A DNA stretch of 64,000 bases from Arthrobacter methylotrophus (GTDB taxonomy: Bacteria > Actinomycetota > Actinomycetes > Actinomycetales > Micrococcaceae): the NCBI RefSeq assembly GCF_039539965.1, contig NZ_BAABED010000001.1, positions 1,550,001 to 1,614,000 of the forward strand, given 5' to 3'. A model generated the notes under the pieces. The model was not told the origin of the DNA and did not search any database. It was given only the letters and a program-made list of their open reading frames with translations. Positions 6,734 through 39,337 of this stretch are shown here, in pieces; within the stretch, counting starts at the first letter, position 1; each line of letters opens with the position of its first letter. The position numbers and the translations under genes were made by a program.

Positions 6734-7606
6734 CTACCAGACACCCTCGTCGAACGTCTCGCCGATGATCGTGTTGATGTTCGTTTCGCCTTCGGCCAGG
6801 AGCCGGGTGAAACGCTTCTCGGGGTAGCTGTCCTCGCTGTGGGGAAGACCGCCGGCGAAGCGGACAGCAGCTAAGGAGTAGGCGAGCAGGGCACCCTGCT
6901 TCGTCCACTCGGCCGTACCCCAGTCACGCTGGGGAATGGATCCGTTGTGCTTCTGCATTTCGGCGGCCCGGACCGTGAAGTAACCGGTCAAGCGGCGGGC
7001 CCGCAGCGCAGTCAATGGAGCAGCGGTCAGCTGCTTGATCGCAGCGGGGGAGAGCGCCTCATGGTCGGCGCCGATTGGCAGGCCGAGCTTAAGCAGCTCG
7101 TTGCGGACATTCCCGATCATTTCCGGGTCGGAGTCCGCGTCCCGCAGAGAGGCTGCGACCTCGGCCTCACCGAAGGCAATGCCGTGATAGTAGGTGTCGC
7201 CGGTACGTCCTGCCGATTCGAGCGCGTTGCGCATCCGGACGAAGCTGCCTCGCAGAGTCCGGTCTGCCTGGGTCTGGTCGATCATGTCCGTCTCCGGGTC
7301 GGGGTCGTAGTCCACAGCCGGCATGACGGTGTCCAGATGTGCCTCCCAGGGTACGAGCCTGCTGGCTTTCATGTACAGGGAGCCGCCGCCGTCCAGGGTG
7401 ACCGTGACGTTGCCGTTCTTGTCTTTGCCGGGCTCCGCGATGGTGCCGAACTCGTTGCCGGCCATGACGCGGGTACCCGGGGTGAAGGCGAAGGTCTCTT
7501 CCGCCTGCTTCAGCATCTGTAGCTGGATGGAAGGGGCGGCGTGGGTGGTCGCGGCGAACTGACCGCCGACCGGAACTCCTTTGGGCTGGCGCGCTGTGGC
7601 GGTCAT
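6734..7606 (-). CDS. GGQF-tagged protein, SH3/KOW-like domain
   Basis: 290 aa. Residues 5-25 carry the tag shared by 28 proteins of this element: ARQPKG, then PVGGQFA, then H and AP. After a short linker, residues ~40-85 (TPGTRV..FGTIAEPG..VTVTLDGG..VPW) look like a small SH3/KOW beta-barrel; the rest is helical and unknown. Start ATG overlaps the stop of the preceding gene (ATGA), so it has no box of its own and depends on translational coupling. Last gene of the array. Confidence 0.75.
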   Translation of the reverse strand: MTATARQPKGVPVGGQFAATTHAAPSIQLQMLKQAEETFAFTPGTRVMAGNEFGTIAEPGKDKNGNVTVTLDGGGSLYMKASRLVPWEAHLDTVMPAVDYDPDPETDMIDQTQADRTLRGSFVRMRNALESAGRTGDTYYHGIAFGEAEVAASLRDADSDPEMIGNVRNELLKLGLPIGADHEALSPAAIKQLTAAPLTALRARRLTGYFTVRAAEMQKHNGSIPQRDWGTAEWTKQGALLAYSLAAVRFAGGLPHSEDSYPEKRFTRLLAEGETNINTIIGETFDEGVW

Positions 7607-8022
7607 TCGCGGCCGTCCTTGAGAGCGTAGACGGCTTCCTCAATGTCTTCGTCCTGCAGATCCATGAGGAGACGGCCCAGGCGGTGCCCTGTCACTTCAG
7701 GGTCCGCGGAGCCGGGTTCCTGGTGCTCGGACACCACGTAGCGGTCGACCGCGAGGCGGACGAGGCGGTCATCGTTGCGGAGAGCGCGGACCTGGGCACC
7801 TGCGTCGCCGAATTCGCCACGGACTAGGGCGTCGTAGATCGCAGACCGGGCGACCCGTGCTTCGACCAAGGGGTTCAGCCGGTCGCTGAGGAGTTCTGCA
7901 TGGGAGTGTGCTTGGAACGAGGGCTGTGTCGTCAGGACGGCTGCCGGTTCGGCATGGGCGGTGGCGGCGAACTGACCGCCTACAGGAATGCCTTTGGGCT
8001 GGCGGGCCGTAATTGTCGTCAT
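7603..8022 (-). CDS. GGQF-tagged protein, small helical
   Basis: 139 aa. Tag at residues 5-26 (ARQPKGIPVGGQFA, H, EP), then a mostly alpha-helical body with acidic C-terminus (LQDEDIEEAVYALKDG). Not recognised. Start ATG 8022 is preceded by the box GCCGCACACG at 8031-8040, exactly 8 nt before the start. Stops inside the next start (ATGA). Confidence 0.75.
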   Translation of the reverse strand: MTTITARQPKGIPVGGQFAATAHAEPAAVLTTQPSFQAHSHAELLSDRLNPLVEARVARSAIYDALVRGEFGDAGAQVRALRNDDRLVRLAVDRYVVSEHQEPGSADPEVTGHRLGRLLMDLQDEDIEEAVYALKDGRE

Positions 8023-8245
8023 GCCTGGTACGTGTGCGGCTGGGCATATTTCCGCCAACCGTGCCACGATCACCACTTCTCTGGACCTGTTCAGGGAGGG
8101 CGAAGCGGAGCTTGTCGTTGCTGCGGAACTGTTCTCCTCAGGTGGTGCCGCGGGGCACCCGGGCCTGTGGAGGTTCTGCGTGAGGCGCCCCGCATAGGCG
8201 TCAGGGCCGTGCACTAAATACCCGCATGCCGTACACATGGAGTTG

Positions 8246-9028
8246 ATGACGACGAATATCGCGCAACCAGAAACCGGAGGGAATCCGGAAATCCTCATCG
8301 CGGGGGACTGGCACGGCCGCACCTCCTGGATGGTAATGGTGCTGCGCAAGGCAGCCCGCAGCGGACACAGGACGGTCATCCATGTCGGTGACCTGGCAGT
8401 GCTGTGGCCGGCAGCGAACGACAAGGACAAGTTCACGAAAGCCCTCGCCCGCAGGCTCGAAGAGCATGGCCTGACGCTTATCTTCATCGACGGAAACCAC
8501 GACGTGCACCCGAAACTGCGCGCGTTGCCGGTCAACGAAGAGGGATTCGGCGTCATCACCGACCGGTTGTTGTACGCGCCGCGGGGTCACCGGTGGCAAT
8601 TGGGCGGGGTCCGGTTCGGGGCACTGGGCGGGGCCTATTCGGTTGACCGGCGAACCCGGAAGCTGAATTCGTCATGGTGGATCGGGGAGGAGACCAGCGA
8701 AGCGGATGTGCTCCGGCTCGGACACGGATCGTTGGATGTCCTCATTACCCATGAGGTCCCTGCAGGGATCGACGTCGTTCCGCAGATTTTCGGAGAACTG
8801 CCTGAGTTCATCGAACGCGAGGCGTATGCGAACCGGCTCCTGGTCCGTGACGCGGTCCGGAACACCGAACCGAAGCTTGTCTTCTCCGGGCACTGGCATC
8901 AGCGCCGCACCGGCCTGATGCCGAACATGGACACACGGGTTCATGTCCTGCATCGGGACCTGTTCGAAGGGAATGTAGTTGCCTTGGACCTGGACACCTT
9001 GACCGTCCGGGAGTACCCATTGGGCTGA
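8246..9028 (+). CDS. calcineurin-like metallophosphoesterase
   Basis: 260 aa. All dinuclear-metal motifs are present in order: GDWHG (D-x-H, residue ~20), HVGDL (GD), DGNHD, THE and SGHWH (G-H-x-H). No signal peptide, so cytoplasmic; substrate unknown. It is one of few rightward genes in the array, yet TACACA sits 8 nt before the ATG at 8246 on this strand, so the start box is strand-independent. That spacing is why 8246 is preferred over the in-frame ATG at 8237. It carries no GGQF tag and converges on the 9080-9814 gene through a shared hairpin. Confidence 0.85.
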   Translation: MTTNIAQPETGGNPEILIAGDWHGRTSWMVMVLRKAARSGHRTVIHVGDLAVLWPAANDKDKFTKALARRLEEHGLTLIFIDGNHDVHPKLRALPVNEEGFGVITDRLLYAPRGHRWQLGGVRFGALGGAYSVDRRTRKLNSSWWIGEETSEADVLRLGHGSLDVLITHEVPAGIDVVPQIFGELPEFIEREAYANRLLVRDAVRNTEPKLVFSGHWHQRRTGLMPNMDTRVHVLHRDLFEGNVVALDLDTLTVREYPLG

Positions 9029-9038
9029 CCAGGGCATG

Positions 9039-9075: not shown

Positions 9076-9079
9076 TGTT

Positions 9080-9814
9080 CTAGCGGTTTTTGTTCGTCAG
9101 CAGGGTGTTGACCCTGTCCCTGAGTTCTTCCAGATCCTCTTTCTTGTCGGAGTCGTAGTGCTCCTCGTCCAGGCAATCCTGGATCGTGATGATTCCGAAG
9201 TTTGCCGACTCGATGAGATCCTTTTGCTCCTGGGCCGCGAACGCACGGGTGAGCGGGTCGTTTTGCGGACTCACGTCAGGCAGGGGCGCCTGGGTTGCGG
9301 CCTTGAGGTTGATGTCTGCCATCCGGGTGTATTTCCGTCCGCCGTGGAATTCCGCAACACCCTCGGCCCAGGAGTCGTCCTTCGGGTTCAACGCCCAGGC
9401 GAGTTCCCGCAGATCCGGCCCGGTGAGGTAGGGCTCCTCCATCGTCCAGCTGTCATCGTCCAGGGAGAGCTCCAGCAGGGCACCGTCGGCATCGGCAAGG
9501 GAGATCAGGTCGAACTGGTTTTCGCCGTCCTCGCTTTCCCGGATCCTCAGCACTGCTGCGTCCGGGTATTTGGCCAGGATCGCCGATGACAGACAGCGCA
9601 GGGACTGGATCTGGTGCATGTGGTCCAGGACTTCGGCTTGTTCACGGTGCCGGCGCAGGAGTTCCTGGTGGGCGAAATACACGCCAAAGTGCTCCGAGGC
9701 TGATTGAGGCTCTGAGGAGACGAGTCCGATGGCCGGTTCGGTGTGGGCGGTGGCGGCGAACTGGCCGCCCGCGGGGATGCCCTTGGGCTGGCGAGCTGCT
9801 GTGTCTGTGGTCAT
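9080..9814 (-). CDS. GGQF-tagged protein, KYPDAA-domain paralog
   Basis: 244 aa. Tag at residues 6-29. A coiled helix rich in Glu/Gln/Arg (about 45-75) leads to LAKYPDAAVLRIRESEDGENQF and then a DSW/GG/DI-L-AA-APLP tract. The gene at 9886-10431 shares this block closely, so the two are paralogs. A C-terminal extra ~60-residue acidic helical part (DLEELRDRVNTLL) is unique to this copy. Box GCCGCACACA at 9823-9832. Function unknown. Confidence 0.75.
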   Translation of the reverse strand: MTTDTAARQPKGIPAGGQFAATAHTEPAIGLVSSEPQSASEHFGVYFAHQELLRRHREQAEVLDHMHQIQSLRCLSSAILAKYPDAAVLRIRESEDGENQFDLISLADADGALLELSLDDDSWTMEEPYLTGPDLRELAWALNPKDDSWAEGVAEFHGGRKYTRMADINLKAATQAPLPDVSPQNDPLTRAFAAQEQKDLIESANFGIITIQDCLDEEHYDSDKKEDLEELRDRVNTLLTNKNR

Positions 9815-9843
9815 GCCCAGGATGTGTGCGGCGGACATGCGAA

Positions 9844-9873: not shown

Positions 9874-9885
9874 CTGTCAACGCCG

Positions 9886-10431
9886 TCAGGCCTCCGGGTC
9901 CTCGGGGAGCGGGGCGTTCAGGGCCGCCTGCAGGTCGATGTCGACGATCTTGGAGGTCCGCTTGCCGCCGGTGACGACACCGACACCGTCGTGGGTCCAG
10001 CTGTCATAGTGCCGGTCCAGGTCGTAGACGAATTCCTGGACGTAGGGGCCATTAGGCGTCATCTCTTCGTAGGCCCACTCATCGCCATCGTCCACGTGCG
10101 CGAGCACCCGCCCGTCGGTTGCGGTGATGGAGACGACGTCGTACTGGTTCTCGCCATCTTCGTTCTCTATGATCCGGAGGGTGGCTGCCTCCGGGTACTT
10201 GGACAGAAGCGAGGAGGCCACGCCCCGGACTGCGACGCGCTGGGCGAGGCGGTCGAGGGCTGCGGCGTTTTCCTGGGCCTGGTCGCGGCGTTCCCGGATG
10301 GCGTCCCGTTCTGCCACGAATTCTTCCGCGGTGGCGGAGCCCGGCGGCAGGGTGATCTGGGGTTCCGCGTGGGTGGTCGCGGCGAACTGGCCGCCGGCGG
10401 GGATGCCCTGGGGCTGGCGTGCGGTGTTCAT
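9886..10431 (-). CDS. GGQF-tagged protein, KYPDAA-domain paralog
   Basis: 181 aa. Tag at residues 4-26, helix with AERDAIRERRDQAQ, then LSKYPEAATLRI and ENEDGENQYDVVSI, ending APLPEDPEA. Near-duplicate in order and spacing of the 9080-9814 protein. Instead of the usual box, the start is preceded by CACCACAGAAAGCAGAACC, a ribosome-site-like leader, so it is probably read from the upstream gene 24 nt away. Confidence 0.75.
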   Translation of the reverse strand: MNTARQPQGIPAGGQFAATTHAEPQITLPPGSATAEEFVAERDAIRERRDQAQENAAALDRLAQRVAVRGVASSLLSKYPEAATLRIIENEDGENQYDVVSITATDGRVLAHVDDGDEWAYEEMTPNGPYVQEFVYDLDRHYDSWTHDGVGVVTGGKRTSKIVDIDLQAALNAPLPEDPEA

Positions 10432-10454: not shown

Positions 10455-10976
10455 TCAGGCGGAGAACTGGTGGTCCATGTCGATGACGTAGGTGCTGGTT
10501 TCGGGGTCGTAGCCAATCCCTTCGTGCTCGTAGCCGAAGAAGCCGGTGCCGAGCCGGGACAGGTGGACGGACACGCCGGGATCAATCTGGTCATCGTCCT
10601 TGTCCCGGCGGTAGAACCAGTGCTTGTCTTTGGGGGTGATGTCGTGGCCGTCCTTGTCCCGGATGCTCACCGGGGAGAACTCGTCCAAGGGCTCTCCGGT
10701 CCAGCCGTGCCGGGAACGGGTCACGTGCAGCTTGGCGGCGTCCGGGAAGTGCCGGCGGACGGAGCCGATGGCAGCGTCGACATTCATCAGGTCCATCTGC
10801 TCCTGCAGCCGGTAGATTTCCTGGCGCTTCTCGAAGAGTGCGTCCAGCAGCTGCCGCTGCTCGGCCGGGGTGATAGCCGTCGATGTCAGGCTCACGGCGG
10901 GCTCGGCATGGGTGGTAGCGGCGAACTGGCCGCCGGTGGGGATGCCCGCGGGCTGCCGGGCGGTCGTCTCGGTCAT
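10455..10976 (-). CDS. GGQF-tagged protein, distant KYPDAA-domain paralog
   Basis: 173 aa. Tag at residues 6-28. A coiled helix (EKRQEIYRLQEQM) is followed by RRHFPDAAKLHV, a VSIRDKDG turn and GFFGYEHEGIGYDPETSTYVIDMD. The same order occurs in the 12124-12651 protein. Starts 2 nt after the preceding stop (10979), so coupled; no box. Confidence 0.7.
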   Translation of the reverse strand: MTETTARQPAGIPTGGQFAATTHAEPAVSLTSTAITPAEQRQLLDALFEKRQEIYRLQEQMDLMNVDAAIGSVRRHFPDAAKLHVTRSRHGWTGEPLDEFSPVSIRDKDGHDITPKDKHWFYRRDKDDDQIDPGVSVHLSRLGTGFFGYEHEGIGYDPETSTYVIDMDHQFSA

Positions 10977-10978
10977 GG

Positions 10979-11494
10979 TCAGTGTCCTTCGGGGGAGCCG
11001 GGGGAGAGGAAGACTTCGAACCGGGCCAGCACCTCGTCGGCGCTCCGGAAGACGGGCTCCCGGCCGGAGGGGTGCATCATGTCCAGCATTGATCCGGCGC
11101 GGCGAAGGCGGCTCCTGGCATCCGTCACCGCCTGGCGGGCCGCGGCCTGGTCACCGCCGGCTTCGTGGATCCGCAGCGGGAGGTGCTGCAGCGAGCTGTG
11201 TGCGATCACGAGCATGGCGGCGTGGGTCTCGTAGCCCTGGGCCAGGGCCGCTTTGCCGTTCTCCAGATAGGACGTGGCCAGCTGGTTGCTCAGGACCAGG
11301 GCCATAGCGGTGCGGGCTTCGGCCGGTGTCCTGCCTCCTTCTTCCAGGGAGGCCGCGGCGTCGTGCCAGTCCTGATCGGGCCGGGCCGCCGACGGCGGCG
11401 GGGTTAGGGTCATGGATGGCTCAGCGTGGGCAGTGGCGGCGAACTGGCCGCCGGCAGGGATGCCCGCCGGTTGGCGGGTGTTGTTTGGGCTCAT
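10979..11494 (-). CDS. GGQF-tagged protein, all-helical
   Basis: 171 aa. Tag at residues 5-28 (TRQPAGIPAGGQFA), then a Pro-rich linker and at least four amphipathic helices with Ala-rich faces, TPR-like in look but without a clear repeat. Unknown function. The box GCCGCACACA (11503-11512) lies inside the last codons of the upstream gene, whose TGA overlaps this ATG. Confidence 0.7.
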   Translation of the reverse strand: MSPNNTRQPAGIPAGGQFAATAHAEPSMTLTPPPSAARPDQDWHDAAASLEEGGRTPAEARTAMALVLSNQLATSYLENGKAALAQGYETHAAMLVIAHSSLQHLPLRIHEAGGDQAAARQAVTDARSRLRRAGSMLDMMHPSGREPVFRSADEVLARFEVFLSPGSPEGH

Positions 11495-12123: not shown

Positions 12124-12651
12124 CTAGATGAGGTCGATGCCCTCGGCGTAGTCGCGGTCCAGCGGGACGATGATCTCGCCGGTCTCCGTGTCGTAGGTGA
12201 GGTCGTTCTCGTAGTCGAAGAACCTGTTGCGGATCTCGTTGAACGAATTGCTGATGGACCGGCCGCCGTCCGGGGCGGCCTTGTAGTCCCAGTTGGAGAT
12301 ACCCTCGGCCGGGTTGTTGCCGTCCTTGTCGCGGATCCCCTCCAGGGTGGACCTGAACTGGCTGCCGCGGTCGCCGAAGTGCTGCTTGACGCGCATTTCG
12401 GTGGCGGTCGGGTAGTCCCGGAGGATGCCTGACTTGACCGCCTCCATGCTCAGCCGGTCCTGTTCCTTGAGCATCTTGTCGACAGCGTGCAGGCGCCGGT
12501 CCGCCTGGCTCAGCAGCAGAGCGTGCCGGTCCGGGTGGTACGGCTGCCGGACTGCCGCCGCAGTCTCAAGGGTTACGTCCGGTTCGGCGTGGGCTGTCGC
12601 GGCGAACTGGCCGCCGGTAGGGATGCCGGCCGGCTGGCGTGCAGCGTCCAT
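12124..12651 (-). CDS. GGQF-tagged protein, distant KYPDAA-domain paralog
   Basis: 175 aa. Tag at residues 3-26. Coiled helix, then ILRDYPTATEMRV, GIRDKDGNNP and RFFDYENDLTYDTETGEIIVPLD. This matches 10455-10976 block for block. ATG shares one base with the TGA of the preceding gene (TGATG). Unknown function. Confidence 0.72.
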   Translation of the reverse strand: MDAARQPAGIPTGGQFAATAHAEPDVTLETAAAVRQPYHPDRHALLLSQADRRLHAVDKMLKEQDRLSMEAVKSGILRDYPTATEMRVKQHFGDRGSQFRSTLEGIRDKDGNNPAEGISNWDYKAAPDGGRSISNSFNEIRNRFFDYENDLTYDTETGEIIVPLDRDYAEGIDLI

Positions 12652-13385
12652 CAGTAACCTTCCTTGAACGCCTGGTCCGTCTTCTCGTGTTGGTAGACCT
12701 TGAGAGAGGCGTCCATGGCCTGGTAGATGTCGATGCTGTGCGCGTCGGCGTAGTGGCGCAGGTCGGTGAACAGGTCGCGCATCGTGATGTCTGCGCCCTG
12801 TCCTTCTTCGCAGACCGCCATGACCGCGGCCGCCCGCTTGGCGGATTCCTGCTGCGGGGTCAGCTTCGCTGCCGGTGCGCCGTGCCCGGTGGCGAAAGCG
12901 ATGATCGCCTTGTTGGTTTCAGTGGACGCGGTGGCGTCGGCGAGCACACCGAACGTGGCGCCGTCGATGCGTTCGTGCACTGATTCGGCCCAGGTGCGGG
13001 TCTTCTCGAAGTCGTCGTAACTGGCGATGGTCGACCAGGGTGCGATCTCATCTTCGCCGCTGTGGCCGGACTCGATGGTGTTGGTGATCTCGTCGGCCAT
13101 GGGGTCGTTCAAGAACGCCATCGTGCTGCCATCGACGGTGACGCGGGTTTCGAGGTTGCCGTCGATGTCGAAGCCGAACGTGACCTCCGGAGTGCCGACG
13201 CTGGCCGGCAGTTCCGGCAGGCGGCCGAACTCTGATTCCTTCAGGTCGATGCTGCCCTTGAATTCCACCGGGACGGCAGGGGACGTGTTGCCTGGCAGCC
13301 CGATAGCTGGCTCGGAATGGAAGGTGGGTGCGAACTGGCCGCCGGCAGGGATGCCCTGCGGTTGGCGTGCAATGGTATCGGTCAT
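12651..13385 (-). CDS. GGQF-tagged protein, paralog of 18070-18900
   Basis: 244 aa. Tag at residues 6-28. Residues ~45-80 read ESEFGRLPELPAS then PEVTFGFDIDG and LETRVTVDG; ~110-150 read WAESVHERIDGATFGVLADATAST. Both blocks recur in the 18070-18900 protein, so the pair arose by duplication. Box at 13394-13403; here the 8-nt spacer contains AGAAGG. Body unknown; no catalytic motif seen. Confidence 0.75.
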   Translation of the reverse strand: MTDTIARQPQGIPAGGQFAPTFHSEPAIGLPGNTSPAVPVEFKGSIDLKESEFGRLPELPASVGTPEVTFGFDIDGNLETRVTVDGSTMAFLNDPMADEITNTIESGHSGEDEIAPWSTIASYDDFEKTRTWAESVHERIDGATFGVLADATASTETNKAIIAFATGHGAPAAKLTPQQESAKRAAAVMAVCEEGQGADITMRDLFTDLRHYADAHSIDIYQAMDASLKVYQHEKTDQAFKEGY

Positions 13386-13418: not shown

Positions 13419-14057
13419 TTAGAAGGGCTCGTAGACCGGCCGCCCGTACGGGATGCGGTCGGTGTCCGTGCCGGTGGAGAGGAGGATCTCGCCGTAGCCG
13501 AAGGGCCGGAACCGGTTCTTCTCGGTCGGGCACACGAAGGTGACCTTTCCACCTTTATCGCACCGCGTAGTGATCTTGTAGCCTGCTGAGCTGACGATGA
13601 CCGCTTCGGCGCCCGTGCCGATGTCCATAGAGTTGCCCCAGTTCGAGCGGGCCCGGATGATCGCCGTGCCGGAGACCACCTTGAGGTTGGGAATGCCGGA
13701 GCAGACGTCGACGATGATGGGCCGGCCGTCCTTGGGGCCCACGATTTCGATGTGCTCTCCGGGCTCCGTGTCCGGGGAGCAGTACGCTTCCAGGCGCACC
13801 ATACGGATCTTGCCGTCTGCCTCGCCTCGGGTGTTCTTTAGTAGGCGGCGCGCCTCGGACCCGGTCCTCGGGTACTTTTCTTCGATCACAGCGTCGGGGC
13901 CGGCCAGGGCTTCCAGTTCGCGTTCGTAGAGGTGCTGTTCGTTGACGAATTCTGCACGGCTGCCGGTGAGGACAATGCCGGGCTCGGAGTGTGCGGTGGC
14001 GGCGAACTGGCCGCCGGAGGAGATGCCCTTGGGCTGGCGTGCTGTGGTTGTAGTCAT
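13419..14057 (-). CDS. GGQF-tagged protein, beta-helix-like
   Basis: 212 aa. Tag at residues 6-28 (ARQPKGISSGGQFA). After a helical segment, the C-terminal half is a run of short beta strands with regular V/I and G (SGIPNLKVVSGTAII, then GTGAEAVIVSSAGYKITT), as in a small beta-helix or stacked-turn fold. The 16782-17501 protein shows the same order. Box at 14066-14075. Function unknown; a ligand- or carbohydrate-binding role would be a guess. Confidence 0.72.
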   Translation of the reverse strand: MTTTTARQPKGISSGGQFAATAHSEPGIVLTGSRAEFVNEQHLYERELEALAGPDAVIEEKYPRTGSEARRLLKNTRGEADGKIRMVRLEAYCSPDTEPGEHIEIVGPKDGRPIIVDVCSGIPNLKVVSGTAIIRARSNWGNSMDIGTGAEAVIVSSAGYKITTRCDKGGKVTFVCPTEKNRFRPFGYGEILLSTGTDTDRIPYGRPVYEPF

Positions 14058-14819: not shown

Positions 14820-15476
14820 TCATCCCTCTGCCACATCCCCGGTTGGGCCCAGGACGGTGGCGTCCGGGTCTTCCCGCATCCCCCAGTAGCCGTCAGACCC
14901 GGAGAGCACCAGCCCGGCTCCGAGGTGGCCGCGATGCCAGGCCTCGGACGGGGTGAGCTTGAGTAACTTGCGCCAGTGTTCCCGGTCCTCGAATGACGCA
15001 CGCTTGGTGCCGGAGATCTGCAGGGCGTGGTCGGTGACGTAGACCGGGGTGCCGCCGGGCTTGAACCGGTCCAGGGACGGGTCGTAGTGGTCCATGCTGC
15101 GCTCGTACAGCGCGGCGGCCCCGGTGCGCAGGCCCATGACGAAGTCGTCGTAGGCGGGGTCCTTGGTCTCGAGCGCCCGGGTCATCGCCCAGTCGTGCCA
15201 GGCGTGGAACGCGTTGCGGCGCTGGGCGTTGACGACGCCGCGGGAAAGGGGGCCGTCCATGACGGTGCCGACGGCCGCGTCGATGGATGCATCTTCACCG
15301 AACACCCAGTCATCAGGGCGGGGTTCCGGGCACCTGGCGTGCCGGCCCAGGAAAGTGTCCTCCGGCAGGTTCAGTTCTGTTGACGCTTTGGCGCGGAGGT
15401 TGACGCCGGGCTCGGTGTGGGTGGTGGCGGCGAACTGGCCGCCTGCTGGGATGCCCTTGGGTTGGCGGTTGCTCAT
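14820..15476 (-). CDS. GGQF-tagged protein, unknown
   Basis: 218 aa. Tag at residues 4-25 (RQPKGIPAGGQFA). The body has aromatic-rich helices (NAFHAWHDWAMTRALETK) and a central KPGGTPVYVTDHALQISGT stretch. No family recognised. ATG overlaps the upstream stop (ATGA), no box. Confidence 0.72.
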   Translation of the reverse strand: MSNRQPKGIPAGGQFAATTHTEPGVNLRAKASTELNLPEDTFLGRHARCPEPRPDDWVFGEDASIDAAVGTVMDGPLSRGVVNAQRRNAFHAWHDWAMTRALETKDPAYDDFVMGLRTGAAALYERSMDHYDPSLDRFKPGGTPVYVTDHALQISGTKRASFEDREHWRKLLKLTPSEAWHRGHLGAGLVLSGSDGYWGMREDPDATVLGPTGDVAEG

Positions 15477-15805
15477 CGCTGGCCTTCTGTCTCGCCCAGC
15501 TGGGAAGTCTCGACAGCAGGGGTCAGCGCCTTCGGGCCAAGAATCATCCATCCGTCGCGATCTCCGGTCCTGCACCAAATTTTCAGTACAGGAAGCCCCG
15601 TGACATCAGTGTGTGGTTCCGGAGCTTTCAGGACCTCCACGTTGTAGACCGTGTCGTGGTGGCTGTACGCGAAAAGGTCGCCGGGTTGTAGGTCCTGTGG
15701 TGTGCGATCAGTGGTGGCTTCCAAGGTGATGCTTGGCTCGGAGTGCGACGTTGCGGCGAACTGGCCCCCTTCGGGGACGCCCTGGGGTTGGCGTGCTGTG
15801 CTCAT
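15473..15805 (-). CDS. GGQF-tagged small SH3-like protein
   Basis: 110 aa, one of the smallest tagged proteins. Tag at residues 4-26 (ARQPQGVPEGGQFA). Residues ~37-85 (LQPGDLFAYSHHDTVYNVEVLKA ... GWMILGPKAL) are consistent with one small beta-barrel. Being tag plus one small domain, it shows the tag is an independent module. Coupled on both sides by ATGA overlaps. Confidence 0.7.
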   Translation of the reverse strand: MSTARQPQGVPEGGQFAATSHSEPSITLEATTDRTPQDLQPGDLFAYSHHDTVYNVEVLKAPEPHTDVTGLPVLKIWCRTGDRDGWMILGPKALTPAVETSQLGETEGQR

Positions 15806-16764
15806 TCAGATTCCTTCTCGATGTATTCGCTGGATTGGTCGGTTTCGAGGATGGCGACGACCCGGTTGAACCGGAGATATTCCTGGCGGCCGTCGATGTG
15901 CAGGAAGTCCATGGAGGCATCGCGGCCGGAGAAGACGTTGCGGATCTTCCCAAAGACCGGCTTCGGTGCGCCGTATTCGCAGTTGTGCAGGTAGACGGCG
16001 GCGATCCCGTTCAGCAGTGGACGTTCTCCTGCCGTGGCGCGCATGAAGCGCAAGGCCATGGCCTGGGGGTTTTGTTCTGCACCGTCGAGGGCCTTCATCA
16101 GAGAGCCCATATACTCGTAGACGGCTTCGCGGCCGTCACATTTGACGGTGATCTCTGTGGACAATTCCCGGGTCCAGTCGGTGCCGGACTCGTAATCTTC
16201 CTGAATGATCTCGACCGGAGCGTCGGCCGGGGCTTTGAACATGCGCCGGATGGCTGCCTCGAACTTCTCGTCACCAGTCATCCTGCTCGTGGTCTGTTCG
16301 ACCCTGGTGTCCCCGTCGTAGTCCGACCTGAGCTCTTGCCGGATCAAATGGTGTTGCTGCGGCGGTCCAGGGACGACACCGCGCGGGGAAGGCAACGGCT
16401 TGGGGTTGGTGCGGGCCTCCACCATGAAGGCAACATGGCAGTCGTGGCAGTAACGCTCGGGGGAGTGGTCAGAACTTTGTTCGTGGAACGCGCACCGGCC
16501 GCTGTGGTTTTTGGCTATGAGCCCGTCTAGGAACTTCTCGAAAGTCGTCTCGCCGGCGCGGATGGCTTTGTGGGTGCCGTAGTAAAGCTCGCCGGTCCAC
16601 CTCTCCGGGATGTCGCGCAGGTCGTTGAGGATGCCTGTCACGACCTTCTCAGGGTCGTAGCGGCGGGGTTCACCGAGGGAGATCCCCGGCTCGGAATGGG
16701 CGGAAGCTGCGAACTGCCCGCCGGCGGGGATGCCGGCGGGCTGCCGCGAGATGTTTTCGGTCAT
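15802..16764 (-). CDS. GGQF-tagged protein with a Cys/His cluster
   Basis: 320 aa. Tag at residues 6-28. Residues ~89-108 hold CAFH ... YCHDCH, a likely zinc-binding knuckle, followed by a long charged region and a C-terminal mixed alpha/beta part ending in acidic ESE. Not recognised. Box GCCGCACACA at 16773-16782, touching the end of the upstream gene; the 8-nt spacer is GGTAAGAC. Confidence 0.72.
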   Translation of the reverse strand: MTENISRQPAGIPAGGQFAASAHSEPGISLGEPRRYDPEKVVTGILNDLRDIPERWTGELYYGTHKAIRAGETTFEKFLDGLIAKNHSGRCAFHEQSSDHSPERYCHDCHVAFMVEARTNPKPLPSPRGVVPGPPQQHHLIRQELRSDYDGDTRVEQTTSRMTGDEKFEAAIRRMFKAPADAPVEIIQEDYESGTDWTRELSTEITVKCDGREAVYEYMGSLMKALDGAEQNPQAMALRFMRATAGERPLLNGIAAVYLHNCEYGAPKPVFGKIRNVFSGRDASMDFLHIDGRQEYLRFNRVVAILETDQSSEYIEKESE

Positions 16765-16781: not shown

Positions 16782-17501
16782 CTACCACCAGATGGCGGGG
16801 CGGGTGACGGGCAGCCAGTCCTCTTCGGGTCCGTCCTGGTGAACGACAGCTCCGTCCTTGGCGTTGATTTCGCAATCGCGGCCGCCGCCTATGACGTGCA
16901 CGGCGCCCGTGCCGGTCACCCGGACATCGACGTTGGATTCCTTGGAGAGTGCCACCCGGGCGTTCGCGGAACTGCGGGTCTCTACGGTGTACCTGTTGTC
17001 GCCGTCCACGACTACGCCGGCGCGGGCGCCGTCTTCGATGACCGTGCGGCCGGATATGCCTTTGAAGCCGCCGAGGACCTCGATGTGGACGTTCCCGGAG
17101 GTGACGTGCAGGGCGTGGAAGCCGTCCTGGACCCGGATGACCAGCGGGGCGCCGGATTCCGGGCCTGCGACCTCATAGATGTCATCCCTGGGGGAGTTGC
17201 GGCGGCCGGGGACCCGGCCGAGGTCCACGACCCGGCCCTGGCTGCGCGGGCAGCGGAGCGCGCGGCGGATCTCCGTGCGGGTCACGGGCTCCTTGTGTTC
17301 GAGCACAATCCGGCCGCCGGCCTCGTCGTAGGTGAACGTGCCATCACTGTTCTCAGTCAGTTCGTATGCTCGACACGGCCTGGTAGGTGTGACTTCAGGT
17401 GCCACGGGCGCAAGGCTGAGAGACGGTTCGGCGTGGGCGGTGGTGGCGAACTGGCCGCCGGCAGGGACACCCCTGGGCTGTCGGGCTATGTTTGTGCTCA
17501 T
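16782..17501 (-). CDS. GGQF-tagged protein, beta-helix-like
   Basis: 239 aa. Tag at residues 6-28 (ARQPRGVPAGGQFA). From ~residue 115 onward short strand repeats dominate (LHVTSGNVHIEVLGGFKG, RTVIEDGARAGVVVDG, VDVRVTGTGAVHVIGG), a beta-helix-like pattern. The order GP-G-PLVI-V-DG-L-V-SG matches 13419-14057. Box variant GCCGTACACA at 17510-17519 lies in the end of the upstream reading frame. Confidence 0.72.
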   Translation of the reverse strand: MSTNIARQPRGVPAGGQFATTAHAEPSLSLAPVAPEVTPTRPCRAYELTENSDGTFTYDEAGGRIVLEHKEPVTRTEIRRALRCPRSQGRVVDLGRVPGRRNSPRDDIYEVAGPESGAPLVIRVQDGFHALHVTSGNVHIEVLGGFKGISGRTVIEDGARAGVVVDGDNRYTVETRSSANARVALSKESNVDVRVTGTGAVHVIGGGRDCEINAKDGAVVHQDGPEEDWLPVTRPAIWW

Positions 17502-18001
17502 ACCGGGGTTGTGTACGGCTGCGCGGCAGTAACGACGGCTGCGACATCGACCCGAAGAAATGCTCCGGCCGCCTCGACTCCCTCCAAGCCCGTGAGGTCT
17601 ACGGCGCGTTCCTGCCGGACCTCGGCCATGACGGTGTCCGCCCAGTCACCGGTGCGGTGCGCAGGCAGGAACCGGCCTGAGCTGTCCAGGACGCTGGCGA
17701 GCATGGTGAGGCGGTCATCCTTCACGGTGAAGACCAGGGTGGCTGCATCAGAGTGCTGCTGCAGGACGTGGTGTGCTGCGGCGGCGCATGAGAGCGCCCG
17801 CTGCCTGTTTCCCACGAGGATGAGTTGTTCTTCCAGGACGGCGCGCTGGCGCATCAGGGCCGGCGTGGCGGCCGCGGCCCGAGCTGCGAGATCTGCGGTG
17901 GAGTGCGGTTCCAGGGTGAACCGGGGTTCGGTGTGGCTGGTGGGGGCGAACTGGCCGCCGGCGGGAATGCCCTGGGGCTGGCGGACTGCGGAGATGGTCA
18001 T
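17498..18001 (-). CDS. GGQF-tagged protein, distant KYPDAA-domain paralog
   Basis: 167 aa. Tag at residues 6-28 (VRQPQGIPAGGQFA). Long Ala-rich helix (AAATPALMRQRAVLEEQL), then LQQHSDAATLVFTVKDDR and LDSSGRFLP, matching the helix, hydrophobic-x-DAA-x-L strand and DG turn of the other members. Box at 18010-18019. Ends AAQPYTTPV, residues encoded by the next gene's box. Confidence 0.7.
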   Translation of the reverse strand: MTISAVRQPQGIPAGGQFAPTSHTEPRFTLEPHSTADLAARAAAATPALMRQRAVLEEQLILVGNRQRALSCAAAAHHVLQQHSDAATLVFTVKDDRLTMLASVLDSSGRFLPAHRTGDWADTVMAEVRQERAVDLTGLEGVEAAGAFLRVDVAAVVTAAQPYTTPV

Positions 18002-29694: not shown

Positions 29695-29734
29695 GCCGGC
29701 TATGTGTGCGGCAACAGTGCCAGACGACACCGGG

Positions 29735-30247
29735 TCAGTCGTCCATGACCCAGCGGGTACCGGAAGCGCGCTCCACGGCAGCGTGCCACTCGTCGACACC
29801 GGCGACGTACGGGAACGGCAGTTCGGGGTGGAACTGCCGTGCGGTGTAGTCGATGACATAGTCCCCGTCCCGGTCGCCTGCCAGGATGGCGATGTGCTGT
29901 CCGCCCAGGCGGTTCCGGCGGATCGTGATCTCATCCAGCCAGTCGGCCCCGAACTCGGAAGCACCGACCTCTTCGATGACTTCGTTCGTGGCGGCCCAGC
30001 AGTTGCCCAGGGCCAGGCGCGGGTCCCCCAGCTCCTGGAGAGTGACGGTTCCCTGCCGGGCAGGGGAGTGGTCGATGATTTCCAGATCGGGGAACTCGGC
30101 GAGAACGTACCGGGCGGCGTCCAGCCGGCGGGCCTGGATGGCGTCCGGGGATTCAGGGGAGGCCAGGGTGGTCCCGGGGTCAGCATGGGTGGTCGGGATG
30201 AACAGGCCGCCGGCGCCCCGCGGATGTTTTGTCGCCGTGAAGGTCAT
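29735..30247 (-). CDS. papain-fold-like protein with divergent GGQF tag
   Basis: 170 aa. The N-terminus KHPRGAGGLFIPTTHADP is the tag with GGQF changed to GGLF. The body has GNCWAATNEVIEEV (candidate nucleophile Cys at ~82), GQHIAIL (His ~115) and DYVIDYTARQFHPELPFP (Asp ~127). This Cys-His-Asp order with a TARQF strand is typical of papain-fold toxins/peptidases of polymorphic and mobile systems. Box variant at 30256-30265 (CCCGTACACA). Activity inferred only. Confidence 0.6.
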   Translation of the reverse strand: MTFTATKHPRGAGGLFIPTTHADPGTTLASPESPDAIQARRLDAARYVLAEFPDLEIIDHSPARQGTVTLQELGDPRLALGNCWAATNEVIEEVGASEFGADWLDEITIRRNRLGGQHIAILAGDRDGDYVIDYTARQFHPELPFPYVAGVDEWHAAVERASGTRWVMDD

Positions 30248-30327: not shown

Positions 30328-30801
30328 CTAACGGCGGTTACGGCGGAGGAATTTCGGGATCATCTGGTCCCAGCTGACGTAGGTGCCTTCGGTTTCGGGC
30401 GCCGGAGCATCGCCGCGGTGCACGTCGACCATATGGCTTGCCGTTTCGCTGATCGCGTCGACGGTCTCACTGATGTCATCTCCGAGCTTTTCAGCTCTGC
30501 TCCAGAGTCCCCTGCGCGGTCGTGGATCCGGGCGGCCTTCCTCCTTGGCCATTTTCCGCATCCTGGCCCGCTCAGCAGAGGTGAGGCTGTCGTAGTCGAC
30601 CAGGGAGTTGTTCGTGTGGTCGAAGATGTGCTCGTACCAGAAACCCAGCTGGCGTTCCTCGGTCGGATCCGGCGCTTCAGCTCGGCTGTCGATGCTTGGG
30701 CTGGAGTGGTCGTGGTTGAGCGAAATGGTCGGCTCGGATCGCGGAGAGGAGACGAACTGACCTCCGGCGTGGGTGCCCTTCGGGGCCCTATCAATGCTCA
30801 T
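30328..30801 (-). CDS. GGQF-tagged protein (variant tag), small helical
   Basis: 157 aa. Tag variant DRAPKGTHAGGQFVSSPRSEP at residues 4-24: GGQF kept, flanks changed. Body charged and helical with LGDDISETVDAISETASHMVDVH and a basic end (KFLRRNRR). Not recognised. Box at 30810-30819. Confidence 0.68.
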   Translation of the reverse strand: MSIDRAPKGTHAGGQFVSSPRSEPTISLNHDHSSPSIDSRAEAPDPTEERQLGFWYEHIFDHTNNSLVDYDSLTSAERARMRKMAKEEGRPDPRPRRGLWSRAEKLGDDISETVDAISETASHMVDVHRGDAPAPETEGTYVSWDQMIPKFLRRNRR

Positions 30802-31323: not shown

Positions 31324-31719
31324 CTATGCGTTCCGGTGCGCGTTGAGCAGGCTCCGGCACAACTGGAATGCGATGGTCTCCGAAGCCACGACGCCGGGGT
31401 TGCGCTGCTCGTGGGTGACGACCGCATGGATAGCCGCATCCAACTTCTCGTCATCCTGCGCGGATGCCAGAACGTCGCCGACGTCGCTGATGTTCCGGGT
31501 GCCGGCCATCCTGTGCAGGAGCTTGGAGTCGTAAGCTCCCCGGACCAGGCGGCGGGAAAGGTTCCGCTGTTCGGTCTTGTCCATTTCATTCTCGGTGTAC
31601 CGGCGGTAAACCTCGGCAGAGGCGATGCCGGGGGTGAGGGTCAGGGACGGTTCGGGCCGGACTTCGGGGGCGAACCGGCCTCCGGCCCGGGTGCCGCGGG
31701 GATGGCGGGTGATGCTCAT
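31324..31719 (-). CDS. GGQF-tagged protein (GGRF variant)
   Basis: 131 aa. Tag RHPRGTRAGGRFAPEVRPEP at residues 5-24: Q replaced by R and H lost. Body helical (NEMDKTEQRNLSRRLVRGAY ... AIHAVVTHEQRNP). ATG overlaps the upstream stop. Unknown function. Confidence 0.68.
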   Translation of the reverse strand: MSITRHPRGTRAGGRFAPEVRPEPSLTLTPGIASAEVYRRYTENEMDKTEQRNLSRRLVRGAYDSKLLHRMAGTRNISDVGDVLASAQDDEKLDAAIHAVVTHEQRNPGVVASETIAFQLCRSLLNAHRNA

Positions 31720-32612
31720 GCGTTGTCGCCGCCGTCCCGCATCCAGGTCCGCATCGCTTCGATCCGACGGGCGAGCTGCCGGTCCGGATAGAAGGACTGC
31801 TGGTTCGCCGTCGTCGCGCGGCCGAGTTCGAGATCCACTGCGGCGTTGTCGACGTAGCCGCGGGTGGTGAGCCGGCCGATGGCCGGGTAGGCGAGGACGC
31901 CGCGGGTGGTGCGTATTGCGTTGATCTCCTTGGCGATCGCCACGGCTGCCATGTCGCTGACGGGACGCTTGCCGTGCCGGTCATCGACCATGCGGGCCAC
32001 CTCGTCTGTGCCCAGGCGCAGGCCGGCTGCGCGGGCCGCGTACGGGTCGGTCAGGACGGTGGCGCCCTCGACGCGTTCGATGATGAGCCGGCCCAGGTTT
32101 TCGGAGCCGAAGGAGCCGTGGTCGGATTCGTTGTGCAGTTGAACGACCTTGGTTCCGTTCCAGGAAGCGTCCACGACCTGGTCTTCGGTGAGGGATCCGT
32201 CAGGGAGCTGGGCGGTGCATTCGATGCCGACCTCGTCCCAGCCGTCGTCGGAGCGGACGTCGGCGTCGTAGCGTTCGGCGAGGAAGTCTTCGATGACGGG
32301 GCTGTTGTGTTCCAGCCACGCGTCCAGTGCGTCCCCGTGCAGGCGCGGGTCCGTGTCTGTGATGAGGTCTTTGATGTTCACGGTCTTGGCAGGGGAGACC
32401 CAGTAGCCGGAGCCGTCATCGGAGCGGGACACGGTCAGGGCCTCGATGACTTCCCCGTCGGCGAGTTCCGGGAAGGTGTCGCCGTCGCCGGGGGAGAGGG
32501 TTATGGGGCGTTGGACCGGGTCAAGCAGGAGAGTGGCTTCTGCGTGGGTGTCGGGGGCGAACTGCCCCCCGGCGGTGATGCCCTTGGGCTGCCGGTTCTG
32601 AGATGTCGTCAT
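31716..32612 (-). CDS. GGQF-tagged protein at the head of the array
   Basis: 298 aa. Tag at residues 6-27 (NRQPKGITAGGQFA, HAEA). Mixed alpha/beta body; EHNSPVIEDFLAERYDADV and a C-terminal helical part (SDMAAVAIAKEINAIRTTRG) stand out. No family recognised. Box at 32621-32630. Directly downstream of the AT-rich gap. Confidence 0.72.
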   Translation of the reverse strand: MTTSQNRQPKGITAGGQFAPDTHAEATLLLDPVQRPITLSPGDGDTFPELADGEVIEALTVSRSDDGSGYWVSPAKTVNIKDLITDTDPRLHGDALDAWLEHNSPVIEDFLAERYDADVRSDDGWDEVGIECTAQLPDGSLTEDQVVDASWNGTKVVQLHNESDHGSFGSENLGRLIIERVEGATVLTDPYAARAAGLRLGTDEVARMVDDRHGKRPVSDMAAVAIAKEINAIRTTRGVLAYPAIGRLTTRGYVDNAAVDLELGRATTANQQSFYPDRQLARRIEAMRTWMRDGGDNA

Positions 32613-33995: not shown

Positions 33996-34592
33996 TCATG
34001 CGACGGCGCCCTGCTGGACGGAGCTGGAGTTGTCGGCGGCCACGGCGTAGAAGGCGGCCGTGTTGGCCAGCAGCTCCCAGCGTTCCCGGTTCTCCTCCTG
34101 GCCGTTCTCGAGCAGGTCATCTTCGTCGGTGTAGTCGGATTCCTCGATCAGCAGCTCGTACTTGTGCTCCGGGTTCAGGACATGTCCGCGGTCCTCCCAA
34201 TGCTTCATTTCCTCATGAACGGCGAAGCGGATGAGTTCGATGTGGTGCTCGCGCTTGTCCCGGGGCAGGTGGCGCAGGGCGTCCTCGAGGTTCTTCACGG
34301 CCTCGGCCCGGGTCTGCGGTGCGCCGTCCTCCCCGGTCCAATACACCGAGTAGGAGTCCCGGATCAGGTCCGCGACCTTCCCGGCGTTGATGGCCGACTT
34401 CGCCGGGATCCGGGGCAGTGCCTGAAGTTCTTTGCGGAGACCCGGTCCGCGGTCGGCTTCGAAATCGTAGTCGAAGTCAGGGCCGTCGACCGGGGCCGGG
34501 ACGAGGGTGAGGGTGGGTTCGGTGTGCGGAACGGGAGCGAACTGCCCCCCGGTGACGACGCCTGCAGGGACCCGAGCTGTGATGTTCTCCAT
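33996..34592 (-). CDS. GGQF-tagged protein (ARVPAG variant)
   Basis: 198 aa. Tag ARVPAGVVTGGQFAPVPHTEP at residues 6-26. Body helical and acidic, with REHHIELIRFAVHEEMKHWE and a C-terminal ELLANTAAFYAVAAD. Not recognised. Box at 34601-34610. Confidence 0.72.
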   Translation of the reverse strand: MENITARVPAGVVTGGQFAPVPHTEPTLTLVPAPVDGPDFDYDFEADRGPGLRKELQALPRIPAKSAINAGKVADLIRDSYSVYWTGEDGAPQTRAEAVKNLEDALRHLPRDKREHHIELIRFAVHEEMKHWEDRGHVLNPEHKYELLIEESDYTDEDDLLENGQEENRERWELLANTAAFYAVAADNSSSVQQGAVA

Positions 34593-38071: not shown

Positions 38072-38949
38072 CGGCCGAGAGCGGCAGCCTGGACAATTTC
38101 GTGCAGCCCTGACTGACCCATGCCGACCAGGGTGGAGCCGACACCGAAGATCGCATACGCGACGATCGGGACCAGCAGCAGCCATTCGCGGATGGACCCG
38201 GCGTGTCCGAGGACCGGGATAGTCATGTAGCCGTTGGAGTGCCAGCACTGCTTGAGGATGGGCAGGTTGGCAATCACCTTGGGCGGCTTGATGGCGAACG
38301 GCCAGGCCAGGTTGCAGCCCTCGGTGGTCATCATGTCCCCGAGGATGTGGACGATCACGCCGATGCCCATGGCGATCGGGAACCAACCCTGTTCCTGCGG
38401 GGCGAAGAAGGTGATGAACGCCCCGATAGTGAGCCCGACGGCCCACGGTGATTTACGCATCCGGTCCGGGATGATCTTCAACGCCTTCGCGGCGAAGGCG
38501 ACCAGCAGGACCGAGAGGATCCCTGCGCCCGGGTATATGGTGCCGAACCCTTGAAGACTGTAGGTCCAAAGCCCGGCGAGCCAGGCAACGAACACGAACG
38601 CGGCGATACCTACCACGGAGTGTGTGCCGTGCCGGTGACCGCCGGAGACCTTGCCGATTCCGGCGCACATTGCGTTGGAGAGCGGCGGCAGGGAATGGGC
38701 GATGGTGGCGTTGTGGTGGTCCGCGTCCGGGAGCATCGCGGCGCCCGCGGTGACGAGGGCGCCGGTGACGATGCCGACCGGACTGACGTTCAGCAGCCCG
38801 AACCCAAGGTCCAGAGTGTGCGGGAGGAAGGCGACTTTTTCGGCGAGGGCCGAGATGTCGGTGTGGATGTTGGTGGTCAGTGCAACCCAGGCGGCGGCGC
38901 CGCAGGCTGCGTGGTGGGCTCCCATCATGGCGGCGGGCAGTCCTTTCAC
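38068..38949 (-). CDS. membrane-bound metal-dependent hydrolase (YdjM/DUF457 type)
   Basis: 293 aa. GAHHAACGAAAW at the N-terminus, LPDADHHNATIAHSLPP, GGHRHGTHS and HILGDMMT supply the His/Asp pattern of the LexA-regulated YdjM/DUF457 membrane hydrolase family; about six transmembrane helices. Start GTG 38949 overlaps the stop of a 10-codon leader (GTGA); ATG 38928 is the alternative. The box at 38978-38987 is not at the usual spacing. Confidence 0.75.
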   Translation of the reverse strand: MKGLPAAMMGAHHAACGAAAWVALTTNIHTDISALAEKVAFLPHTLDLGFGLLNVSPVGIVTGALVTAGAAMLPDADHHNATIAHSLPPLSNAMCAGIGKVSGGHRHGTHSVVGIAAFVFVAWLAGLWTYSLQGFGTIYPGAGILSVLLVAFAAKALKIIPDRMRKSPWAVGLTIGAFITFFAPQEQGWFPIAMGIGVIVHILGDMMTTEGCNLAWPFAIKPPKVIANLPILKQCWHSNGYMTIPVLGHAGSIREWLLLVPIVAYAIFGVGSTLVGMGQSGLHEIVQAAALGR

Positions 38950-39040
38950 GGTCGGAAGAATCGCTTTCTCTTCCTCATGTGTGCGGCCAGACGACAAAGG
39001 GTCCCCGCCGAGACGGGGGCCCGTGGGGATTGTCGGGGTA

Positions 39041-39337
39041 TCAGGCGCGCCCGTTGAGGCGGCCCTGGATGGAGCGGATCCGCTCGTCCGTCTCCTGCAT
39101 GGACGGCATGTCGGTGACACCCCGGCTGGCCATGGCGTTCCGGAGCGGGGTCTTCTTGCTGCGCAGCCGCGACACCTGGTCCGGTGTCAGGTCCGGAAGC
39201 GCGGGCAAGGACCTGGAGAGGTTCTCGGCAAGGGAGCCTCCGGCGGCGATGTTGATGGACGGTTCAGCGTGGATGTCGGCAGCGAACTGGCCGCCGGCGG
39301 GGATACCGCGGGCAACGCGGGCCTGGGATGTCGTCAT
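39041..39337 (-). CDS. GGQF-tagged protein, small
   Basis: 98 aa, far from the main array. Tag ARVARGIPAGGQFAADIHAEP at residues 6-26, followed by one helical domain (LAENLSRSLPALPDLTPDQVSRLR). The smallest complete carrier, nearly tag alone. Box at 39346-39355. Unknown. Confidence 0.72.
   Translation of the reverse strand: MTTSQARVARGIPAGGQFAADIHAEPSINIAAGGSLAENLSRSLPALPDLTPDQVSRLRSKKTPLRNAMASRGVTDMPSMQETDERIRSIQGRLNGRA

Follow-up and report, generated by a model that had tools for sequence, protein, structure and literature searches.

A shared N-terminal peptide on dozens of soluble proteins of a large integrated Arthrobacter element: a candidate address signal

Encapsulins and microcompartments use cargo-loading peptides in which one short peptide sits on unrelated enzymes, and phage heads inject MuF-type proteins along with DNA. 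In the parts of the cited accounts drawn on here, conjugative type IV secretion of the F plasmid pED208 delivers ParA, ParB, SSB, PsiA, PsiB and other proteins (PMC8406263, PMC11288057), and ArdC of pSa is reported as transferred (PMC5512222). Here we describe a 64,000-nucleotide stretch of Arthrobacter methylotrophus (contig NZ_BAABED010000001.1, positions 1,550,001 to 1,614,000; hereafter the window), which holds one end of a 464.5-kb integrated element and encodes 28 proteins that begin with a common peptide, the tag.

As in F-type co-transfer, where the cargo is linked to maintenance and stress relief and passes through a VirD4-type receptor, many plasmid proteins of unrelated fold are involved; unlike there, where signals are C-terminal or internal without a consensus and delivery has been shown, one strict N-terminal peptide is present here and delivery is what we infer. 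The carriers, LPD29 and ArdC-like proteins among them, share with polyvalent proteins (PMC5512222) establishment and conflict functions thought to travel with DNA, but those activities are fused in one chain, whereas here separate proteins share a leader. Leading-region genes (PMC11541004) offer a further likeness, as establishment genes in one-orientation arrays with special promoters next to transfer genes; there the feature is early expression in the recipient, with no shared protein leader described, and here it is a peptide tag. A shared N-terminal peptide is absent from the parts of PMC8406263, PMC11288057, PMC5512222 and PMC11541004 used for this comparison, and no description of the tag motif was found in open-licence literature, including that on plasmids and translocation signals (judged by title or listing). 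Targeting peptides as such are a known kind of signal; the literature searched does not describe this particular signal, nor its scale or its link to a private promoter set.

A profile built from the window's own carriers, run on all stop-to-stop open reading frames (ORFs) of at least 40 aa, gave 28 matches in the window (E 1.3e-17 to 1.4e-4, with the next candidate at E 0.14), all on the minus strand between 6734 and 39337; a model's earlier reading of the same DNA (the sequence-only reading) had likewise counted 28 proteins with a shared N-terminal tag. The consensus, R-x-P-x-G-x-x-x-G-G-Q-F-A-x-x-x-H-x-E-P-x-V-x-L, covers ~25 residues and begins ~4-9 residues after the start. Both glycines and the phenylalanine are present in 28/28 carriers, the arginine in 27/28, and the proline, the glutamine and the leucine at +15 in 26/28 each. 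The carriers are as follows, where "motif" denotes the upstream motif GCCGCACACA taken up below and clusters are clusters of the bodies behind the tag.

6734..7606, minus: tag carrier, 290 aa; tag E 2.3e-16; no motif before start
7603..8022, minus: tag carrier, 139 aa; tag E 2.5e-16; motif with 1 mismatch
9080..9814, minus: tag carrier, 244 aa, paralogue of 9886..10431; tag E 1e-16; exact motif; cluster 0
9886..10431, minus: tag carrier, 181 aa; tag E 2.5e-16; cluster 0
10455..10976, minus: tag carrier, 173 aa, paralogue of 12124-12651; tag E 1.1e-16; cluster 19
10979..11494, minus: tag carrier, 171 aa, clusters with 19556-20536; tag E 1.5e-17; exact motif; cluster 3
12124..12651, minus: tag carrier, 175 aa; tag E 8.2e-17; cluster 19
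12651..13385, minus: tag carrier, 244 aa, paralogue of 18070-18900; tag E 9.6e-15; exact motif; cluster 1
13419..14057, minus: tag carrier, 212 aa, paralogue of 16782-17501; tag E 5.9e-16; exact motif; cluster 4
14820..15476, minus: tag carrier, 218 aa; tag E 4.8e-17
15473..15805, minus: tag carrier, 110 aa; tag E 8.2e-17
15802..16764, minus: tag carrier, 320 aa; tag E 6.8e-16; exact motif
16782..17501, minus: tag carrier, 239 aa; tag E 1.6e-15; motif with 1 mismatch
17498..18001, minus: tag carrier, 167 aa; tag E 1.7e-15; exact motif
18070..18900, minus: tag carrier, 276 aa; tag E 8.4e-16
18897..19559, minus: tag carrier, 220 aa; tag E 7.5e-15
19556..20536, minus: tag carrier, 326 aa; tag E 1.2e-16; exact motif
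23945..25159, minus: tag carrier, 404 aa, longest in window; tag E 1.7e-17; exact motif
25230..26252, minus: tag carrier, 340 aa, DUF2958 (PF11171, E 1.1e-7); tag E 6.9e-15; exact motif
26326..27060, minus: tag carrier, 244 aa; tag E 1.3e-17; exact motif
27424..28107, minus: tag carrier, 227 aa, DUF7007 (PF22653, E 4.3e-29); tag E 1.1e-16; modelled, tag predicted disordered
28104..29069, minus: tag carrier, 321 aa, DUF7007 (PF22653, E 1.7e-33); tag E 2.2e-16; exact motif
29735..30247, minus: variant-tag carrier (GGLF), 170 aa; tag E 1.4e-4; motif with 2 mismatches; papain-like match PF15645, E 0.0052, below cut-off
30328..30801, minus: tag carrier, 157 aa; tag E 3.3e-13; exact motif
31324..31719, minus: variant-tag carrier (GGRF), 131 aa; tag E 1.1e-12
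31716..32612, minus: tag carrier, 298 aa; tag E 5.4e-15; exact motif
33996..34592, minus: tag carrier, 198 aa; tag E 9.2e-13; exact motif
39041..39337, minus: tag carrier, 98 aa, shortest in window; tag E 4.6e-12; exact motif

The size range of 98 to 404 aa agrees with the sequence-only reading, which had also taken all bodies to be unrelated; instead, 12 of the 27 clustered carriers form six paralogue pairs, giving 21 clusters, or ~22 body families in place of 28 once the 29735-30247 carrier, left out of the clustering as below the threshold used, is added. Its description of the 98-aa carrier as nearly tag only overlooks ~67 residues beyond the tag. Among its body calls, one DUF2958 and two DUF7007 proteins were confirmed, whereas the papain-like call corresponds to the weak Tox-PLDMTX match below cut-off.

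The host element spans C1:1555565-2020127 (positions prefixed C1 are those of the contig), and its end in the window is the following repeat.

5565..5592, no strand: 28-bp repeat at the left end of the integrated element; its right copy, at C1:2020100, lies in tRNA-Leu(gag)

The two 28-bp direct repeats lie 464,535 bp apart, the right one forming the 3' end of the tRNA-Leu(gag) gene, and a phage-type integrase match (PF00589, C1:2018912-2019418) is found ~0.7 kb inside the element's right end. A direct repeat at either end, one of them within a tRNA gene, and an integrase at one end identify an integrative element, which at 464.5 kb is, to our knowledge, among the largest integrated elements. 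Every one of the 52 tag matches in the 5.08-Mb genome falls inside it (C1:1557517-1965648), so that the 28 previously given for the element is too low. One stretch at C1:1720569-1720643 matches the tag at the very end of an open frame, not at the N-terminus, with no body behind it.

The DNA relatives of the element are circular plasmids of the Arthrobacter group, 375-440 kb in size, all of which bear the tag.

pYJN5-1, 440 kb: 38 tag matches
pACHL01, 427 kb: 50 tag matches
pPA-B-2242, 418 kb: 42 tag matches
Arthrobacter caoxuetaonis plasmid, 375 kb: 27 tag matches
Arthrobacter sp. zg-Y1110 plasmid, 401 kb: 34 tag matches

By its annotation pYJN5-1 encodes DnaE, a replicative helicase, SSB, ligases, a ribonucleotide reductase, a thymidylate synthase, SecY/E/G and a sigma-70 protein of 989 aa. 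When 17 pYJN5-1 proteins were compared, the element gave matches to DnaE, LigA, SecY, SecE, SecG, the VirD4-like and FtsK-like proteins, Clp_N proteins and a penicillin-binding protein, and only the C-terminal part of the sigma-70 protein was matched strongly. This last protein, encoded at 45591-48560 of pYJN5-1, looks helicase-like by eye in its N-terminal half.

A set of 252 tagged proteins (E 1e-4, one row per ORF end) includes 49 matches of this element, without the 29735-30247 carrier, and, from the relative record G442, of which about half was covered, five of its eight tag matches (E up to 0.1). In distant pairs from the same body cluster but different elements (body identity <30%, n=152), ungapped identity is 0.55 in the tag vs 0.07 in the next 20 residues. 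At the DNA level, codon diversity at identical residues of 235 tags is 0.45, vs 0.48 expected from body usage, and because tag codons vary almost freely, neither a DNA function nor recent copying explains the tag; a DNA-level cassette or recombination site was ruled out on the same ground. In a family of sigma-like carriers, the only two invariant columns among 59 aligned homologues both lie within the tag, and mean information drops from 2.6 bits in the tag to 2.1 in the body, with the linker lowest at 1.6. Judging from these alignments, selection acts on the tag peptide. In two AlphaFold2 models the tag is predicted to be disordered (pLDDT 40-57 and 44-53) ahead of a mostly well predicted body, so in the two carriers modelled it lies outside the fold, whereas a single folded domain common to all bodies would have spoken against the sequence-only reading. 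A membrane-like stretch occurs in 1/237 tagged vs 44/367 untagged leaderless proteins, and the tag, being hydrophilic, does not resemble a Sec or Tat signal peptide. A double-glycine leader of the bacteriocin type was weighed by eye as well and set aside. The tag is thus very likely a common linear signal, in line with the earlier proposal of a linear N-terminal signal on differing soluble proteins.

That one leader precedes 75 body clusters in the 252 proteins could alternatively reflect a functionless sequence shuffled by recombination at gene 5' ends, a history that would also suit the DUF7007 body, which occurs without the tag in more distant homologues. Such shuffling is highly improbable, since the tag is conserved relative to flanking residues and supplies the invariant columns of a diverged family, its near-neutral codon diversity indicates no recent copying, and the tagged genes have a promoter type of their own.

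The motif GCCGCACACA lies exactly 8 nt before the start codon in 15/28 window carriers, with 1-2 mismatches in three more and not at all in 10. Allowing up to 2 mismatches, the pattern has 43 matches in the window vs a shuffled mean of 8.8, and, genome-wide, the bare motif is found 112 times vs 6 for the reversed control. The form CCGCACACAT is present in 97-141 copies per element in six elements, with 0 when reversed and 0 in a 120-kb control made up of ~110 kb of chromosome and, in its right piece, ~10 kb from within the element. The 8-nt distance from GCCGCACACA to the start codon recurs in many genes, and where the start codon lies elsewhere the base at that position is still mostly a purine, which, together with the spacing, fits a promoter starting at the A of ATG; the motif is probably a promoter with its start site at this A, yielding leaderless mRNAs.

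An element-wide motif, CCGCACACA, stands at fixed spacing to start codons (in the window, for example, at 9812-9832 and 29692-29712), and two putative promoter types separate tagged from untagged genes. In untagged leaderless starts (n=389), CGG[GT]GA occupies a fixed upstream place in 174 and T follows the motif in 375, whereas in tagged genes with the exact motif (n=80) the counts are 0 and 24 (Fisher 1e-18 and 8e-40), and these tend to CTG in the same upstream place and a GGC context before ATG. These statistics fix the exact CCGCACACA, so that conservation inside the motif is by construction; of the untagged leaderless starts, 389 entered the motif statistics and 367 the membrane comparison above (at least 40 aa, tagged ends removed). 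By this upstream contrast the tagged genes have their own promoter type. Because untagged genes of the same elements use the other type, the tag is not a by-product of location, as the sequence-only reading had argued. In the Agromyces relative G338 (contigs C20 and C8), GCCGC[CG]CTTAT stands at the same spacing before 6/9 tagged genes; the last part of the motif is changed while tag and geometry are kept, as if the recognising factor had changed specificity. The long sigma-70/helicase protein of pYJN5-1 looks canonical by eye in its DNA-binding regions, so it is not proposed here as the factor for the CCGCACACA promoters. The element-wide promoter set constitutes a second, separate finding.

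Among 237 tagged genes, the exact motif stands at leaderless spacing in 80 and a version with 1-2 mismatches in 22, while 81 have only a Shine-Dalgarno-like stretch and the rest neither; whenever an in-frame start was available at the motif, it was taken as the start codon, which favours the leaderless count. The 80 and 22 are what one would cite for the tag as an expression helper, its codons aiding translation of leaderless mRNAs and the peptide being incidental. This is almost certainly wrong: the 81 genes with only a Shine-Dalgarno-like stretch carry the tag, 389 leaderless starts do without it, and the nearly free variation of tag codons already contradicts it.

The recognisable carriers comprise an NAD-dependent DNA ligase, a PolyA_pol+HD protein of the CCA-adding type (split over two ORFs in this genome), Fic proteins (in relatives), DUF2958 and DUF7007 proteins, a weak LPD29 match and the sigma-like protein. 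None of the carriers with a Pfam match over cut-off combines disparate functions as a polyvalent protein does; most carriers have no such match. The sigma-like carrier (C1:1731068-1732093) is present in all six elements and in G338. Sigma70_r2 is matched in 19/59 family members at E up to 0.1 (best 2.3e-5; the member of this element, E 0.0041, below cut-off), comparison with the solved sigma factor 7qh5 gives E 0.0015, and in a Foldseek search with its model the 50 of 113 matches listed are all sigma factors or initiation complexes by title (best E 0.053, low TM-scores), while the DUF7007 model in the same search returned unrelated proteins only, none credible (best E 0.26). These results are weak but concordant for the sigma assignment. 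Of 108 sigma-like homologues, the profile alone finds the tag in 89, and profile and pattern taken together find it in 96; we judged the other 12 to be six with a GAG[ER]W variant, four truncated or wrongly started and two without a tag. A scan of named genomes with this family found at least one locus, in Arthrobacter sp. ISL-65. Curtobacterium D40 encodes an ArdC-like protein, with ArdcN over cut-off, that bears what by eye is a degenerate tag. A related motif precedes the start of its gene by 8 nt, and ~13 kb away are FtsK and nuclease-related genes resembling those that adjoin the window's array.

The first tag form was found in 5/72,556 plasmid records (tblastn, composite query), which are the five kin plasmids, and, with the same search, in 0/50,697 phage records. 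Across 59 relatives, five have a tag match, this genome included, and the other four have one match each. In the class, 4/394 genomes have the tag per profile (two profiles, this genome included), with more than one match only here and in G338; these searches scored only ~20 candidates per genome and may undercount. At the sensitivity used, then, the matches lie on large mobile elements and are not spread evenly over chromosomes, the outcome that would have spoken against the sequence-only reading. A second, looser form, F-[DN]-E-x-x-H-P-R-x-x-x-G-x-F (the HPR form), replaces the first on homologous bodies; it matched eight plasmid records, among them three Curtobacterium plasmids of 546-608 kb, two of which were profile-searched and gave 6 and 5 tag matches (E up to 0.01). 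In a second carrier family, 98 of the 120 homologues listed out of 272 have the tag in strict or loose form and 22 have neither, and the named homologues among the matches listed come from Nakamurella, Nocardioides, Pseudactinotalea and an Acidimicrobiales bacterium. The 35 closest DUF7007 homologues comprise 31 with the tag by profile, three with the HPR form and one truncated, whereas of the other 40 only one (P0172) has the tag, the named members being mostly alphaproteobacteria; the two groups were set by similarity rank, and few members bear names. With NCBIfam, the DUF7007 alignment gave a glutamate dehydrogenase match in 2/35 members only, which we took as chance.

Viral records bear on the possibility that the tag is a packaging signal, loading proteins into a virus-like particle that injects them with DNA. 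The HPR form resembles residues ~22-45 of Gordonia phage Sixama gp73, whose gene lies between portal and ADP-ribosyltransferase genes, and record G442 is classed as viral by IMG/VR; among viral contigs, 56 stretches fit the tag pattern and four loci on three records were confirmed. The Sixama matches, however, are at chance level (E 2 with one query, 0.5 with another), and so is the likeness of the second tag form to a short HPR..G.F stretch in MuF-type phage head proteins and toxins. Unlike MuF-type systems, the element kin examined show no head genes among annotated genes (no systematic search was made); in particular, no capsid, portal or terminase is annotated on pYJN5-1, and a PHROGs scan of seven proteins turned up no head gene. 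With the first form in none of the phage records, we regard packaging as very unlikely. A close phage relative of the locus was rejected, window positions 6500-31400 having no near DNA match in the phage collection.

Two genes beyond the tagged array bear on where the tagged proteins might go.

43374..49409, minus: FtsK/SpoIIIE-like ATPase, candidate transfer ATPase; PF01580 E 7.8e-7; LAGLIDADG insert PF14528 E 1.3e-6, probably an intein
51968..54457, minus: VirD4/TraG-like coupling ATPase, candidate tag reader; weak Pfam TraG-D_C and TrwB matches, below cut-off

Both genes are encoded on the element together with the tagged genes, as the sequence-only reading had noted; the VirD4/TraG-like assignment itself falls below the Pfam cut-off, although the pYJN5-1 orthologue is named a type IV secretory system conjugative DNA transfer family protein (RefSeq). 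Outside the window, the element encodes an AAA_10 (VirB4-like) ATPase, a 94% identical match to a VirB4-like protein with AAA_10 over cut-off, and VirB4-like relatives occur on tag-bearing contigs of G338 and G442. Near the pYJN5-1 VirD4-like gene lie three Clp N-terminal domain proteins, one Pfam-confirmed (E 1.4e-12), with counterparts in this element, and the tag could be a handle for regulated proteolysis by which these proteins set carrier lifetime. We found no link between tag and Clp_N proteins, and a strictly patterned 25-residue signal is longer than any N-degron known to us; this role is very unlikely. Nor did any evidence emerge for proteolytic maturation, one of the options in the sequence-only reading, though no test was aimed at it.

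One linear code on soluble, co-regulated and functionally scattered proteins implies a reader. We tentatively favour, with something close to an even chance of being right, the reading that the tag is an address signal for one element-encoded receptor, most likely marking proteins delivered with DNA. The disordered tag would mark the co-regulated soluble proteins for this receptor, possibly the VirD4-like protein; they would pass to the element's transfer ATPases and enter the recipient along with the DNA, which they may mend and shield and whose expression they may start. The first needs of an arriving plasmid would include a ligase, tRNA repair, ArdC, Fic and a sigma factor. Tags of unrelated proteins resemble each other within G338 (0.66, 36 pairs) and G442 (0.61, 10 pairs), vs 0.32-0.58 for orthologue tags in other groups (few pairs), the pattern that a separate reader for every element would give, and the main Arthrobacter group agrees (0.62 vs 0.55-0.57). 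Known co-transfer signals are varied and poorly defined, and a strict ~25-residue code on 27-50 proteins per element, found also in homologues of several actinomycete families, would make the cargo list readable from sequence; if it is a delivery code, many uncharacterised proteins would stand out as probable factors of establishment or anti-defence. Wherever the proteins go, the sharing of one leader by dozens of them, with a promoter type of their own, makes the question testable by finding the peptide's partner.

Several observations weigh against delivery. No tag receptor was found, and we infer both reader and transfer. The shared ATPases do not discriminate, because core genes such as DnaE are shared too, and the VirD4-like Pfam match is below cut-off. 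PLSDB types five tag-bearing plasmids as non-mobilizable, a typing that covers known relaxases only, and no relaxase was recognised in the parts examined, where no search was aimed at relaxases. Known conjugative signals of the F system, in the part of PMC11288057 drawn on, are C-terminal or internal. Two of the five groups (0.50 and 0.52) show no within-element coherence of the tags, and in close pairs (bodies >75% identical) the tag, at 0.76 vs 0.81 for the body, is no better conserved. Lone tag matches occur in the four relatives mentioned above without a recognised element, and the ligase and CCA-type enzyme could serve the donor equally.

The main rival is that the tag is a docking signal in the donor, recruiting proteins to one assembly of the element in the cytoplasm, for example a factory for replication or the nucleoid, or a shell made of protein, by analogy with the encapsulation peptides that load microcompartments. 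The sequence and disorder evidence for one linear signal would apply here in the same way, a ligase is among the cargo, and the element family itself supplies a large part of the replication set. Yet DnaE, the replicative helicase and SSB, which a factory would need first, are untagged in pYJN5-1, where SecY and the transfer ATPases are likewise not among the tag matches. No shell protein was recognised, none having been searched for systematically, and unlike encapsulin and microcompartment peptides the tag has a different sequence and a far larger cargo set. We consider docking unlikely.

Delivery with DNA could also be part of a wider scheme, unlikely as a whole, in which the tag is the passport of a delivered proteome whose sigma-like factor would switch on the private, largely leaderless promoters, accompanied by repair and anti-defence enzymes. 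On arrival the element would then bring along a transcription programme and staff of its own, and the sequences of tag and promoter would drift in step between elements. The promoters in question would be the ~100-140 CCGCACACAT copies per Arthrobacter-group element and their changed version in Agromyces.

Three further observations concern the surroundings of tagged genes. A lone tagged Fic gene (G034:C22:25728-27002) occurs in a genome with no other tag match. Within the tagged array of the window, an untagged MpaB/Lcp-type oxygenase gene (20585-21439) has annotated equivalents near the counterpart genes in three of the plasmids. Elsewhere in the element, 39 tRNA genes and a tmRNA are packed into ~12 kb (C1:1805296-1817597).

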